From Fodinibius salsisoli (lineage in GTDB: Bacteria; Bacteroidota; Rhodothermia; Balneolales; Balneolaceae), in NCBI RefSeq assembly GCF_026229185.1, contig NZ_JAGGJA010000004.1:186001-250000 (forward strand): a stretch of 64,000 nucleotides of DNA, given 5' to 3'. The notes under the pieces are model-generated. The model ran no database searches, was not told the origin of the DNA, and saw only the letters and a program-made list of their open reading frames with translations. A program made the translations under genes and the position numbers. Each line of letters begins with the position of its first letter. Position 1 is the stretch's first letter. This document shows, piece after piece, positions 41,060-62,225 of this stretch.

Positions 41060-42745
41060 ATGACTGAGGTAACCAACCAGGTTCTCACCGACGATGCCCG
41101 TCAGAGTCAGAATTTTTTTACGAGTGATCAAATTCTCCGTCATTATGTAAACAAACATCTTGATCCTGCTGCCGTGGATTATATGGAACCTCATTTGGAC
41201 CAGCTGGGTCACGAGGCCGCAAACCGGATGAACGATCTTTCTCAGGCAGCTGACCAATATACCCCAACGCTCAACAAACGAACGAAATTGGGTAAAACAG
41301 TGAACCGGGTAGATTTTCATCCCGCCTATGAGCAGCTGGTGGATATCGCCGCTCAATCAGAAATGTTTTACGTAAAATATCATCCCCGGTTACGAAAACA
41401 GTTTATGGGCCATCGACATACGCTAGGTTTTGCCGCTGGTCAGCTTTACGCCATGAGTGAACTGGGTGTTTACTGTCCGCTGTGCATGACGGATGGAGCA
41501 GCTCATTTGGTTGATAGGTATGCGCCTGAATCGATCAGGGAAAGACTGTTGCCCAAACTATCGGCTAATGAGGGAGCACATCTTGCGACCGGAGCGATGT
41601 TTTTGACAGAGAAATCCGGAGGATCAGATGTAGGTCGTAATCTTGTGACTGCTGAACAGGTAGAAGGAAACCAATATCAACTGAATGGCGAAAAGTGGTT
41701 CTGCAGCAATGTTAATGCGGAGGTTATTATGGCGTTGGCCCGGACCGGGAAGCAGGAAGAAGGTACCCGGGGACTCTCTCTGTTTTTAGTGGAAAAGGAT
41801 CTGCCGGATGGGACTGCTAACCAAATGAATATCATACGGTTAAAGGAGAAGTTAGGGGTGCGGTCAATGGCGACTGGTGAAGTAGAATTTAACGATACGA
41901 TAGGTATCCGGTTGGGAGCAGAAGGCAAGGGCTTCAAGCTCATGGCAGAGATGATCAACATTTCCCGAACCTATAATGCTATTGCAGCCATTGGGGGCAC
42001 CCGGCGCGCTATTGTTGAAGCCTATCAGTATTTAAATCACCGGCTAACATTTGGCAAACGAGCCATTGAACATGCATTAATTCGTCAGAAATTTCAGGAA
42101 CTGGGGGCTCTTTATGTGGGAGACTTTCTACTGGCTTGGCGCGCTATACGAGCGATGGATGCAGCCGAGGAAGGAGCTCAAGATGAGCAACAGTTAATGC
42201 GGTTGCTGGTGCCCATGGCCAAGTGGCGGACGGCTGAGCAATCAGTGTATATCGTAAGAGAGTGCATGGAACTGATGGGCGGCAATGGGTATATCGAGGA
42301 TTTCGTGATGCCGAAGCTTTTGCGCGATGTGAATGTTCTGCCAATTTGGGAGGGATCAGGAAATATCATTGTGCTGGATATTCTACGGGCTTCCCAGAAG
42401 TCAGAAGGCCTTCAATTGGTGATTGAGCAAATAAGGGAGGTCAGTGATGAATCGGAAGAATATGGTGAGATTATTAAAAGAGAGCTGACGCATTTATTGA
42501 GAATCTGGAAGAAGCTAAGAGAAACGGAAGATCGGGATGTCGTTGAAGCTACCGTTAAGCCTTTATTTAAGCAACTTATCCTTCTGTATGAGATGGCACT
42601 GATGATTGAAGAGCGAGATAAGACCAGCAAGGCATGGATAGATCCAGCCCTGAACTACCTGGCATCGACGCTTGAAACGGATATTAGGATTCAACATCCT
42701 GCTAATAGACAAGAAGTTGCTGATCTAATAGCGTGGGATTATTAA
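41060..42745 (+). CDS. AidB-like acyl-CoA dehydrogenase family flavoprotein
   Basis: FAD enzyme of 561 residues, longer than typical acyl-CoA dehydrogenases (~380) because of extra N- and C-terminal helical domains, as in E. coli AidB. Motifs: FLTEKSGGSDVGRNL (~192-206), GEKWFCSNVNA, GVRSMATGEVEF, MELMGGNGYIEDFVMPK and LPIWEGSGNIIVLD. AidB is linked to alkylation damage but its reaction is unclear; some relatives oxidise acyl-CoA. An ogt gene for alkylated DNA lies 12 kb away, which is too far to support a link. It is convergent with an amidohydrolase (7-base gap). Confidence 0.87.
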   Translation: MTEVTNQVLTDDARQSQNFFTSDQILRHYVNKHLDPAAVDYMEPHLDQLGHEAANRMNDLSQAADQYTPTLNKRTKLGKTVNRVDFHPAYEQLVDIAAQSEMFYVKYHPRLRKQFMGHRHTLGFAAGQLYAMSELGVYCPLCMTDGAAHLVDRYAPESIRERLLPKLSANEGAHLATGAMFLTEKSGGSDVGRNLVTAEQVEGNQYQLNGEKWFCSNVNAEVIMALARTGKQEEGTRGLSLFLVEKDLPDGTANQMNIIRLKEKLGVRSMATGEVEFNDTIGIRLGAEGKGFKLMAEMINISRTYNAIAAIGGTRRAIVEAYQYLNHRLTFGKRAIEHALIRQKFQELGALYVGDFLLAWRAIRAMDAAEEGAQDEQQLMRLLVPMAKWRTAEQSVYIVRECMELMGGNGYIEDFVMPKLLRDVNVLPIWEGSGNIIVLDILRASQKSEGLQLVIEQIREVSDESEEYGEIIKRELTHLLRIWKKLRETEDRDVVEATVKPLFKQLILLYEMALMIEERDKTSKAWIDPALNYLASTLETDIRIQHPANRQEVADLIAWDY

Positions 42746-57684: not shown

Positions 57685-58572
57685 TTATCGGTTGATGGGA
57701 ACCTGTCCGGATCGATTGAAATCAAAATTGGTACTCCCCAGAAGCTCATGAAGAGGGTTGAAGTCAAAATCCCCTTTAAGCTGGTAATCAAGGGGTTCAG
57801 AACCCGAAAGAATACGGTAAGCCGAGGTCCCAATTTGAGCAATATTGAGAGAAACAGGAATGTTGAGTTCGGTAACACCATCCTCTTTGATGTTAACACC
57901 TTTCAACGCATTCCCTACGGCCCACTGATTTCCATTTACCACCAGGTCATAATTGAATTGGTTGATGTTAAGACCAAATCCATTGGGATTGTCGAACTGT
58001 AGTTTTAGATTTATATCGGCCCCGTTGAAACTCAGGTTCTCCAATTGAACATTTGACAGGTTCAGTTTGGGTAGTTTTAACAAAGGAATAGATCCTTGTT
58101 TTTTAACCGGAATTGCAGTCTCTCCCAAAACGGGCAGATCAAATCGAAGATGGCTGATGAAGTTGTAAGAAGTCTCCTTTTCGTTGGCAAGGCCCGAGAT
58201 AGTACGGTACACATCCCTAAAATTTAGCGTCATCGGCATTTGGATAATACTTGCATCCGAAGCTTTGACAGTAACTTCTTTGGTCTGATTACCATCGAGA
58301 AATGAATTCCCGTTCAGATCCAGATCGTAGTCGTAACCAAGCATTTGGAGGGAAGCGGCGTTAGGGTTGTTAATTTTGATATCGTAAGTTAGCTGCATCT
58401 CTTGAAAATTAAATCCTGTAACCCTCACATCATCAACCGAAAGCGTAGGTTTTTGGATACTATCGGCTAAATCCTGAATAGTCTGGCATCCCCCGATAAG
58501 CAGTACAAGGGAAAATAAATAGATGAATCTTTTAACGGATAAAAGAGGGGTGCTGGTAGAATGTGTTATCAT
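57685..58572 (-). CDS. LEA-type (WHy/LEA14-like) lipoprotein
   Basis: 295 residues with an N-terminal lipoprotein signal (YLFSLVLLIGGCQT, lipobox IGGC). Two LEA14-like beta-sandwich repeats follow: VRVTGFNFQEMQLTYDIKIN with NPNAASLQMLGYDYDLDLNG, and LNLSNVQLENLSFNGADIN with NPNGFGLNINQFNYDLVVNG. The duplicated NPN turn supports two WHy modules. WHy domains are linked to stress and desiccation tolerance in plants and some bacteria; the function here is unproven. It lies 93 bases upstream of the kinase gene on the same strand. Confidence 0.85.
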   Translation of the reverse strand: MITHSTSTPLLSVKRFIYLFSLVLLIGGCQTIQDLADSIQKPTLSVDDVRVTGFNFQEMQLTYDIKINNPNAASLQMLGYDYDLDLNGNSFLDGNQTKEVTVKASDASIIQMPMTLNFRDVYRTISGLANEKETSYNFISHLRFDLPVLGETAIPVKKQGSIPLLKLPKLNLSNVQLENLSFNGADINLKLQFDNPNGFGLNINQFNYDLVVNGNQWAVGNALKGVNIKEDGVTELNIPVSLNIAQIGTSAYRILSGSEPLDYQLKGDFDFNPLHELLGSTNFDFNRSGQVPINR

Positions 58573-58846: not shown

Positions 58847-58973
58847 ATTGTGTTTAAACAGTATGGGAGGCATTTTTGCCTAAGTAAGTAAAAGATTTGA
58901 TTCACTTTAATAAATATTAAAAAAATCTAATATTTTTTGTAACAATCAGCTGGAATTTCACTCTTGTACATAG

Positions 58974-59086
58974 GAGACAGTTTTAATATTAGGTTACAAT
59001 CCTGAATCTGTTCTCTAACTCTAACTTAACTGAGCCCTGAAGCAATAACAAAGACCCGGGACGGATACTCCCGGGTCTTTTTATTT
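58974..59086 (+). ncRNA. Candidate small RNA, about 110 nt, ending at an intrinsic terminator
   Basis: A first hairpin uses GAGACAG (58974-58980) against CTGTTCTC (59008-59015) with a one-base bulge. An unstructured pyrimidine-rich linker (CTCTAACTCTAACTTAAC) follows, then the terminator at 59050. No ribosome site plus open frame is seen between them. The 5' end is only guessed: TGTACATAG just before 58974 is a possible -10-like box. I do not recognise 6S, tmRNA, SRP or RNase P RNA features. Confidence 0.5.
59050..59086 (+). terminator. Strong intrinsic terminator with no upstream gene
   Basis: AAAGACCCGGGA (59050-59061) pairs perfectly over 12 bp with TCCCGGGTCTTT (59069-59080) around CGGATAC, and T-rich sequence follows on the + strand. 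On the minus strand the following bases are mixed, so it is directional. Confidence 0.92.
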
Positions 59087-59302: not shown

Positions 59303-61570
59303 CTAAAAATATAGTTGATATAATAGCGAAATATTTCGTCCTGGTTCGGGCATCAGATTTTTGATACGGGATAGGTGGTCGCGATAGGTGGTATCAAAGA
59401 TGTTTTCGGCGTTGATAGAAAAAGTGTGTAAGAGATTACCAGACTGAAAGCGATATTGGCCGAACAGATCGACGACCGTATAACCATCAGTTGAGGTTTC
59501 AAAGTCACCAGTTCTGGTTTGTTTGGCTGCTATACGTGCTTTGCCGCCAAACTGAAATCCATCGTCGGCATAAGTAAGCCCGACAGTCGACTTAAGTGGT
59601 GGAATCATTGGCAGGGGTTGAATGTCATTAGCTTCGGGATCGATCTCCTGTTCGTTTTGAGTCAGCTCGCGTTCGCCATGAGTATAGCTTAACATACCGT
59701 TGAGGGCGATGTTTGAAAAAAGCTGAATCTCCGTTGCCACCTCGACACCATAAATGCGAGCATTGGCTCCTTTAAACTGATAGTCGTTGAGGGAGGGAAA
59801 ACGAGAATTTTGCCGACCCGTATTTCGGGGATAAATGTAGTTAGAGAAGCCGTTGTGGTAGCCAGTTACTTCGGCCGAAATATCATCTCCACGATAGCGT
59901 ACAAAAAGTTCCTTGCCTAAGCCCCGCTCCGGGTCGAGGTCCGGATTGCCTATTTCATAGGAGTAGGAGGCCAAGTGAGGGCCTTCGGAGTAGAGCTCTT
60001 CTTGCGAAGGCGGACGGAACGAATGCATGAGTGTACTTCCCAGGTAGTATCCCTGGCCAAAGTTGTAAATTGCTGATACGGAACTGGCCAGGGCATGGAA
60101 AGTGCGGCTGCGGATATGTCCAATTTCAGAATCAGGATTTTCTTCGGCAGGCACGGCACGGGAGTAATCATACCGCAGCCCACCTTCAAGATGCAGGCTG
60201 CCCCAATCGGTCTCTTCAACAATAAAAGCAGAGAAGCTATGGGCATCAGAGTCGGGGGTGTTAGCCCCATTGACAGCATAATCTTTGGTTTCAGCCCAGA
60301 GTCCCATGGTTCCTTTAGAAAAGATACCGAGGTCGGAATGATGGGCTTTCACCGAGGCATTGGTCGTCAGTAATCCGAATTCAGTACCGATAATGCCACC
60401 CGATTCGATTTCTTTATGGAAGTAATGTTTGTAGGAGATGTCAGCCGTGATAGAACGAAAACTGCTCTTCGGCAGGTATACTTCGGTAGCTCCTTCCACT
60501 TGATATTTTTCCATCTCAATATCTACACCCTCCGCATGACCACCCTCCGGATCTGGTGGAATACCATAATTGTTGAGGTACAGACTGGAGGCTGCCCCGA
60601 GATATCCCCAGGGACGAATATAGCTAAGGCCAAGAGCATTGTTGGTTGATTGGAGATCCGAATTTTCGAGCGTGCCGGCGGGAGTATTGAGATCACTGGC
60701 CGTACGATAATTGAGATCGGCTTGTACTGCAAAACTACCGATGGGCATACCGGCCTCTACAGCAGCATTTCCCCCTGTATTGACGGTCTCGCCCTGTAGC
60801 GTTGCTGTGCCATGAATATGGTCGGGCATGCTGTTGGCAATTTGATTGCGAACCACATTCACTACGCCTCCAATGGCATTGGAACCATAAATAAGAGCCG
60901 CCGGACCTCGGGCAATTTCAATTTCTTCGGCCGCCATGGGATCAATGGTTACCGCATGATCAGCTGATTGTGAGGAAACGTCGCCCGTGCGTTCGCCATC
61001 TTGCAGAATGAGCACACGTTCTCCGCCTAACCCCCGGATGACGGGCCGTGCAGGGGCAGAGCCCATGGAGCGAGAGCTGAAGCCGGGTAGATCATCCATC
61101 GTTTCGGATAGCGTAGTGCCGAGGTTTTGGCGCAGATCGGTTCCTGAAATCGATTTGGAGGCATGTTCAAGATTGGCATTACCGCCATTATCTTGACTAC
61201 CGACAACTTCTATTGCCCCTGAGCTGAATACCGTAGGTTGTAAGCTTATATCGACTACTGTGGTCTCATTTGCAGTAATTTCGATGGACTGGGAGACGGT
61301 TCGATATCCAATGCGTGTAACACGCAGGGTGTAGGTACCGGCCGGGATGTCACGAAATTCGTAAGTACCGTCGCTATGGGCGGTGATTGTTCGATTGGCT
61401 TCCTCCAGATACAAGTAGGCAAAACTAATGGGTTCGGATGTCTCACGATCTGTAATGGTACCGACTAACGTTCCGGCCTGGGTATCAGGGTCTGCTGCAG
61501 AAGTTTTCTTTATAGGCAAAAACATCACCAAAAAGAGTAGGAATAGGAGAAATGGTTTGGCTGAAAACAT
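59303..61570 (-). CDS. TonB-dependent receptor with carboxypeptidase-like domain (ZnuD-like)
   Basis: 755-residue outer-membrane receptor. A signal peptide (~1-25) is followed by a carboxypeptidase-regulatory-like domain (~33-115, GTLVGTITDRETSEPISFAY). The plug (~140-240) has RPVIRGLGGERVLILQDG and IARGPAALIYGSNAIGGVVNV. The 22-strand barrel ends in ISLLYQLYF. The plug segment SSQSADHAVTIDP and the loop GGHAEGVDIEM resemble ZnuD-type zinc/haem receptors. Its operon partners upstream on the same strand are His-rich exported proteins, which supports metal uptake. The substrate is inferred, not shown. Confidence 0.88.
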   Translation of the reverse strand: MFSAKPFLLFLLFLVMFLPIKKTSAADPDTQAGTLVGTITDRETSEPISFAYLYLEEANRTITAHSDGTYEFRDIPAGTYTLRVTRIGYRTVSQSIEITANETTVVDISLQPTVFSSGAIEVVGSQDNGGNANLEHASKSISGTDLRQNLGTTLSETMDDLPGFSSRSMGSAPARPVIRGLGGERVLILQDGERTGDVSSQSADHAVTIDPMAAEEIEIARGPAALIYGSNAIGGVVNVVRNQIANSMPDHIHGTATLQGETVNTGGNAAVEAGMPIGSFAVQADLNYRTASDLNTPAGTLENSDLQSTNNALGLSYIRPWGYLGAASSLYLNNYGIPPDPEGGHAEGVDIEMEKYQVEGATEVYLPKSSFRSITADISYKHYFHKEIESGGIIGTEFGLLTTNASVKAHHSDLGIFSKGTMGLWAETKDYAVNGANTPDSDAHSFSAFIVEETDWGSLHLEGGLRYDYSRAVPAEENPDSEIGHIRSRTFHALASSVSAIYNFGQGYYLGSTLMHSFRPPSQEELYSEGPHLASYSYEIGNPDLDPERGLGKELFVRYRGDDISAEVTGYHNGFSNYIYPRNTGRQNSRFPSLNDYQFKGANARIYGVEVATEIQLFSNIALNGMLSYTHGERELTQNEQEIDPEANDIQPLPMIPPLKSTVGLTYADDGFQFGGKARIAAKQTRTGDFETSTDGYTVVDLFGQYRFQSGNLLHTFSINAENIFDTTYRDHLSRIKNLMPEPGRNISLLYQLYF

Positions 61571-61685: not shown

Positions 61686-62225
61686 TTAGTGCTCGTGCTC
61701 TCCATCACTATCGGCATCGATATGAAATTCGATGGCGTCATCCTGAGTTGTTGCAGGAGTTTCCAAGTGAGAGTGGGCATCTTCACCGCTGCCATGGTTA
61801 AGCAGAAATTGAATTTTAGACCCGCCTTCTGCCATTCCTTCGAGGTGGAATTCCCATTGGCCGTTGTCATCGTGCTGGTGGATGGCCAGTATATCCGTAT
61901 TTTCAATTTCCCATCCAAGGGAGTAGCCTTCCCCCAAATCTTCGGCGTGGACGTGCTCTCCTTCTTCATTGAGGAAATGTACTTCAAACAGGTATTCTTC
62001 ACCTACATGATAGTGCAGATGACTGTGTTCGGTTACTTCCCCAGTTATATCTGAATATTCATAAATAACTTCGCCGTCGTGAACGAGTTCTATTATCTCA
62101 GGATCGGTGTGTTCGTCGTCACTGCTGGCGGGATTGTCACTACAGGCGGTAACAAGAAGGGTGCTGAAAAGTGTTAATACTAAAAGAGTACGGGTATTGG
62201 TTGGTAAAGACTTAAAAATATTCAT
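61686..62225 (-). CDS. His-rich exported lipoprotein beside TonB receptor
   Basis: 179 residues. The lipoprotein signal is LVLTLFSTLLVTACSDN with the cysteine at ~28. The mature part is acidic and strongly His-rich: EHSHLHYHVGEEYLFEV, GEHVHAEDLGEG, IHQHDDNG, DAHSHLET and a C-terminal DSDGEHEH. No named domain is recognised. It is well suited to binding zinc, copper or nickel at the outer membrane, handing metal to or buffering the adjacent TonB receptor, whose start lies 115 bases downstream. A perfect 14-base palindrome sits 30 bases before its start codon, outside the gene. Confidence 0.78.
   Translation of the reverse strand: MNIFKSLPTNTRTLLVLTLFSTLLVTACSDNPASSDDEHTDPEIIELVHDGEVIYEYSDITGEVTEHSHLHYHVGEEYLFEVHFLNEEGEHVHAEDLGEGYSLGWEIENTDILAIHQHDDNGQWEFHLEGMAEGGSKIQFLLNHGSGEDAHSHLETPATTQDDAIEFHIDADSDGEHEH

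Follow-up and report, generated by a model that had tools for sequence, protein, structure and literature searches.

Which transcript does a strong plus-strand terminator serve when no plus-strand gene lies close upstream of it? This question is raised by positions 58973 to 59085 of the window, i.e., the whole stretch of 64,000 nucleotides of Fodinibius salsisoli (Balneolaceae; contig NZ_JAGGJA010000004.1, positions 186,001 to 250,000) that was analysed here; its source is a halophilic bacterium. The original prediction, made from the letters of this stretch, had proposed an orphan noncoding RNA of about 110 nt. We have compared the locus with its relatives, and have found that it belongs to a conserved small RNA (sRNA) family, which on the comparative sequence evidence is almost certainly real. 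Our preferred explanation, to which we give a probability of about 0.7, is that this RNA is a trans-acting small regulatory RNA and represents the noncoding arm of an extracytoplasmic function (ECF) sigma factor regulon of Balneolaceae. The family is apparently undescribed, and it appears to belong to the known class of ECF-dependent sRNAs. The elements of the locus are as follows.

58938..58944, plus strand: -35 element TGTAACA of an ECF-type promoter, an exact match in the window
58961..58966, plus strand: -10 element CTCTTG
58973..59085, plus strand: predicted small RNA of ~112 nt, with the start taken from the -10 element and the end from the terminator
58974..59015, plus strand: lineage-specific 5' hairpin GAGACAG...CTGTTCTC, from the predicted fold
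59016..59045, plus strand: conserved core and putative pairing region; it aligns with ACUCCU...GCUGAAACCUAAAGC in relatives, and has drifted in the window's lineage
59050..59085, plus strand: intrinsic terminator, a 12-bp stem and a T-tract, with covariation in 49 sequences

Conservation of the predicted RNA across Balneolaceae

Our family set comprises 92 Balneolaceae genomes, including Fodinibius/Aliifodinibius, Rhodohalobacter and Balneola, where G000 denotes the window's own genome. When 58 relatives were searched at the DNA level, several other genomes gave clear matches, and in some of them the terminator is co-linear with the promoter-like stretch. Eight loci were aligned; they have TTTTGTAACA in common, as well as a short core and terminators whose loops resemble one another. 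The covariance model R1, which takes the 3' part alone (73 positions, promoter excluded), matches across Balneolaceae with a best E of 6e-19. The model R2, built from 49 sequences, gives ~50 clear carriers among the 92 family genomes, and, in a set of 394 phylum genomes, nothing convincing beyond Balneolaceae. The own genome scores E 4.8e-13 with R1 and E 8.2e-7 with R2. That is, the covariance-model search of relatives, which the original prediction had proposed as a check, was run with a positive outcome.

Several borderline cases were inspected further. R2 improved the match in G073 from E 0.003 to 4e-8, the weak matches in G058, G060, G061 and G063 carry the promoter, and in G027, which was missed by R2 and has the sigma factor, the sRNA was located at the syntenic place. 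Based on the covariance models together with the promoter and synteny checks, 55 of the 92 genomes carry the sRNA. We have discounted the matches in G080, G108, G110, G111 and G133, as well as the second matches in G066 and G075, since the promoter is missing there, and consider them chance or unrelated terminators. In addition, tandem copies exist at two loci: three copies with their own promoter each in G066:C11 (L069:2216-3016), and two copies in G007:C1 (L080:2127-2636), the second apparently without a promoter.

The terminator stem AAAGACCCGGGA / TCCCGGGTCTTT consists of 12 standard pairs around a 7-nt loop (CGGATAC) and is followed by TTATTT (59050-59080, plus strand). In the region of 55-64 kb we have counted 11 terminator-like sites, while 8.1 are expected, so that the total is near chance. 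Stems of at least 12 pairs occur at two places among them, one of which is the sRNA terminator; the remaining sites have stems of 5-7 bp, except for the sRNA hairpin read on the minus strand without a T-run. The claim of a strong plus-strand terminator is borne out; its stem ranks among the two longest of the candidates in the final 9 kb. The terminator also covaries: 11 of the 12 pairs have changed on both sides across 49 sequences, the double-changed cells amount to 81 versus 23.6 in shuffles (0/500), and the signal is destroyed by sliding the partner.

The fold of 58974-59086 is predicted at -32.7 kcal/mol, while shuffles give -19.7 on average (sd 3.2; z -4.1, 0/200). A second hairpin ahead of the terminator had also been proposed. 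It is present in the predicted fold at 58974-59015, but its sequence is not conserved: the 5' half is variable, each lineage folds a hairpin of its own there, other genera have different ones, and RNAalifold on full transcripts finds the terminator as the only consensus structure. The window RNA contains no open reading frame (ORF), and a tRNA/tmRNA search gave no match. The orphan position holds as well, since the nearest plus-strand gene upstream ends at 42745, and the smaller plus-strand ORFs between this point and the sRNA sit opposite larger minus-strand ORFs.

The ECF-type promoter and its probable sigma factor

Upstream of the RNA lies the promoter TGTAACA-N16-CTCTTG (58938-58966), from which a start at ~58973 is predicted. 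Together with the terminator end, this start gives the ~112-nt RNA at 58973-59085, and the start at 58974 in the original prediction agrees with the one predicted from the -10 box. A generic sigma-70 scan of the window did not flag this promoter; it was revealed by the comparison. TGTAACA-N-CTCTT-like boxes stand upstream of 50 of the 52 covariance-model matches examined, although the promoter is outside the models, with a total spacing of 28 nt in 49 and 29 nt in a 50th. One of the two matches without boxes, L045, shows a close variant on inspection.

Most genomes of genus g1 contain 2–9 copies of the strict promoter pattern; G001, G007 and G011 have none, nor do reversed controls. With a weight matrix on 1.55 Mb of G005, we have obtained six sites above 17 bits, whereas the reversed sequence gave none. 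The same promoter points away from an ECF sigma gene, at a distance of 164-318 bp from the gene start, in all 9 of the 9 genomes examined. In the own genome, the sigma gene is the following.

G000:C42:206996-207571: ECF sigma gene, whose protein matches NCBIfam sigma70-ECF (1.6e-13)

Other promoter sites precede a small lipoprotein gene adjoining a TPR-CHAT gene, and the gene of a probable anti-sigma factor, which we infer from topology. Further sites precede a single-domain response regulator, a probable HU-like protein and a pilin-like protein, all three named by eye. In G000:C42 (L111:2994-8466), the ECF sigma factor, the small lipoprotein, the TPR-CHAT protein and a membrane protein with C-terminal TPR (the probable anti-sigma factor) share the TGTAACA promoter, and this group is apparently an undescribed ECF module.

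The presence of the sRNA follows that of the sigma factor. With E <=1e-40 as the threshold for sigma orthologues, 52 of the 92 genomes have both, three only the sRNA, two only the sigma factor, and 35 neither (Fisher 2e-19, uncorrected for phylogeny). The absence is spread over several separate genera, and the sigma-only genomes, G084 and G103, are incomplete assemblies. The most telling co-occurrence evidence is a co-loss in two genomes of the same genus, G001 and G011, where the LEA and TonB neighbours are kept while the sigma orthologue, the promoter and the sRNA are all missing. Judging from these sequence patterns, the sRNA is very probably controlled by the ECF sigma factor of G000:C42.

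The genomic locus

Read from the protein ends, the sRNA occupies one orthologous locus in most of the family. Its upstream side carries a LEA gene, an MGMT-like gene (identified from its PCHRV motif and not by model search) or an amidohydrolase gene, and its downstream side a ZnuD-like TonB receptor gene or a major facilitator superfamily (MFS) gene. In the window, the sRNA is flanked by the family's LEA and ZnuD-like TonB receptor genes, which serve as syntenic markers.

57685..58572, minus strand: LEA_2-domain protein gene, divergent neighbour (Pfam PF03168, 2.6e-28)
59303..61570, minus strand: ZnuD-like TonB-dependent receptor gene, convergent neighbour

Upstream of the receptor gene, a histidine-rich putative lipoprotein of 179 aa without Pfam match is encoded on the minus strand (61686-62225), and it is probably a metal-uptake partner.

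Overall, the noncoding RNA of ~110 nt in the original prediction gains support from the conserved promoter and core, the covarying terminator, the lack of an ORF, the mostly syntenic locus and the family-wide presence. The ECF-type promoter with its regulon, the sigma co-occurrence, and the core at 59016-59045 as the conserved part were absent from it.

The conserved core and a possible mechanism

The core ACUCCU...GCUGAAACCUAAAGC is mostly unpaired in the predicted folds of 50 transcripts, with an average of ~0.7 versus 0.42 for the 5' part. It has drifted in some lineages, to AACUCUAACUUAACUGAGCCCUGAAGC in the window (G000) and to AACCCUAACAUAACUGAGCCCUGAAGC in G006. Per genome, the canonical core occurs once, the tandem of G007 excepted, and neither exact copies nor complements of it were found elsewhere in the genomes searched, besides the sRNA itself. 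In addition, Hfq (PF17209) is absent in the 15 genomes searched, the own genome included, by a search whose control was positive in 5 of 14 known genomes.

These features may be combined as follows. A stress, probably envelope-related, would activate the ECF sigma factor, which would direct transcription from the promoter at 58938-58966; an RNA of ~112 nt would be made, ending at the terminator near 59085; and its C-rich, mostly unpaired core would pair with mRNA leaders, most likely repressing them. The sigma factor, an activator, would thereby gain a negative output without Hfq. In this chain, the RNA family, the promoter class, the sigma co-occurrence and the absence of Hfq are supported by sequence, and we infer the transcription, the sigma dependence, the pairing and the repression. 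Transcription by the ECF factor and trans action via the C-rich core seem the economical reading by analogy with FoxI and FoxJ in the Hfq-less Fusobacterium. We consider base pairing on mRNAs reasonably probable, while envelope mRNAs among the targets are a tentative suggestion. A general role through mimicry of the anti-Shine-Dalgarno sequence is unlikely because of the weak Shine-Dalgarno use.

Two antisense copies of the drifted core are leads only. In the own genome, G000:C22:53279-53306 (L126:2780-2807, plus strand) is antisense to 59020-59046 over 26 of 28 nt. This stretch forms the loop of a hairpin with a terminator directly after it, and a serine recombinase gene (L126:3529-5190) lies ~700 bp away. 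The duplex of the hairpin RNA with the sRNA (terminator removed) reaches -48.8 kcal/mol, compared with a best of -35 in 200 shuffles. The hairpin is possibly a sponge RNA on a mobile element. That a recombinase-bearing element silences the host's ECF stress sRNA with this sponge, and that the core drift may reflect such an RNA-level conflict, is a rather improbable idea. The other copy, G006:C3:271269-271289 (L127:2770-2790), has a 19-nt antisense match ~130 nt upstream of a glycogen phosphorylase ORF; this leader match is not conserved in G000, and is possibly a target or a remnant.

Points against a trans-acting RNA and alternative explanations

On the other hand, several observations weigh against a trans-acting, sigma-controlled RNA. 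The core of the window's lineage deviates from the canonical sequence, and the predicted fold leaves its pairing motifs only partly unpaired (0.72 and 0.22). Target prediction on 1.55 Mb of G005 did not outperform shuffled seeds; the most promising target, a site at the PepF start codon, was rejected as it is common only to the three closest genomes and is not conserved. The sRNA also occurs without a full sigma orthologue in G022 (a partial gene, 44% identity) and in G070 and G083 (incomplete assemblies), and the co-occurrence is partly inherited.

The lack of predicted targets would suit an RNA that is sigma-dependent but binds a protein, i.e., an RNA-binding regulator or the polymerase, via the terminator loop and a GAAACCU motif, and the YUGAUA-like loop is kept across genera while the stem changes. 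However, the loop letters vary (GGAUAC, UGAUAC, UGAACC), the conserved core resembles that of pairing sRNAs in being C-rich and free of structure, and no 6S or Csr-type Rfam match was found, so we regard protein binding as unlikely. It is highly improbable that the housekeeping sigma factor reads the promoter (TTTG-N19-TAnnTTTG type) and that the ECF link is incidental. Although TTTG (58936-58939) and, after 19 nt, CACTCTTG (58959-58966) resemble the consensus in the window, TTTG, which belongs to the Bacteroidota housekeeping promoter, is not conserved among homologues, being lost in several genera (AAAGTGTAAC) where TGTAAC is retained; moreover, only a handful of sites exist per genome, and presence or absence tracks the ECF gene.

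In many genera the sRNA and the receptor gene lie tail to tail, and in G006 the hairpin is able to terminate transcription in either direction; this could instead point to an element that serves the convergent TonB receptor gene in cis, as antisense RNA or as terminator. We give very little weight to this explanation, considering the gap of 216 bp to the receptor gene in the window, the MFS or other gene downstream in many genomes, and the fact that the conserved parts are the promoter and the core, neither of which is required for a shared terminator. A short peptide gene is barely credible: AUG does occur in the core of some relatives (AAUGCUGAAACC), but the window RNA has no closed ORF ahead of the terminator arm, an ORF of at least 10 codons is present in only 7 of 50 homologues, and the core varies by single-base indels (GCTGAAACC versus GCTGAACC).

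Relation to known sRNAs and implications

As a putative trans-acting sRNA under ECF sigma control, the Balneolaceae RNA can be compared with MicA, RybB and MicL, the sigmaE-dependent sRNAs of enterobacteria. They share an ECF sigma factor with an sRNA output, the 80–110-nt class and an intrinsic terminator; the Balneolaceae sRNA differs in having no Rfam match, and its host in having no Hfq. FoxI and FoxJ (the latter ~156 nt) are sigmaE-dependent sRNAs of Fusobacterium nucleatum, a host without Hfq (PMC11005410). The likeness to them includes ECF-type sigma control, a C-rich putative seed, an Hfq-less host and a noncoding arm, the last being putative for Balneolaceae; nevertheless, they come from another phylum and no sequence relation is apparent. 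Flavobacterium psychrophilum, from a related bacterial group, has Rfp18 and other sRNAs (PMC9723704), and shares atypical promoters and little Shine-Dalgarno use. Rfp18, however, is described there as strongly structured and not as ECF-controlled, and we have seen no relation to the Balneolaceae sRNA.

At the gathering score, Rfam 15 gives no match for the window or the eight homologous loci, and with relaxed thresholds nothing beyond terminator likeness appears. The top sub-threshold match, the Bacillus sRNA ncr1015 (RF02449; 28 bits against a gathering score of 60), has a similar terminator stem, and was rejected as a terminator likeness only, since it matches on both strands. Our literature search has found no described sRNA for Balneolaceae, and none of the Rfam families fits the RNA.

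The system would be a compact regulon, in which one ECF factor governs a single sRNA and a small number of genes, and its lineage lacks Hfq and makes weak use of Shine-Dalgarno sequences. Its confirmation would extend the pattern of ECF stress responses with a noncoding arm to another phylum, and would provide a system for asking how sRNAs act where neither the customary chaperone nor the customary ribosome-binding target is available.
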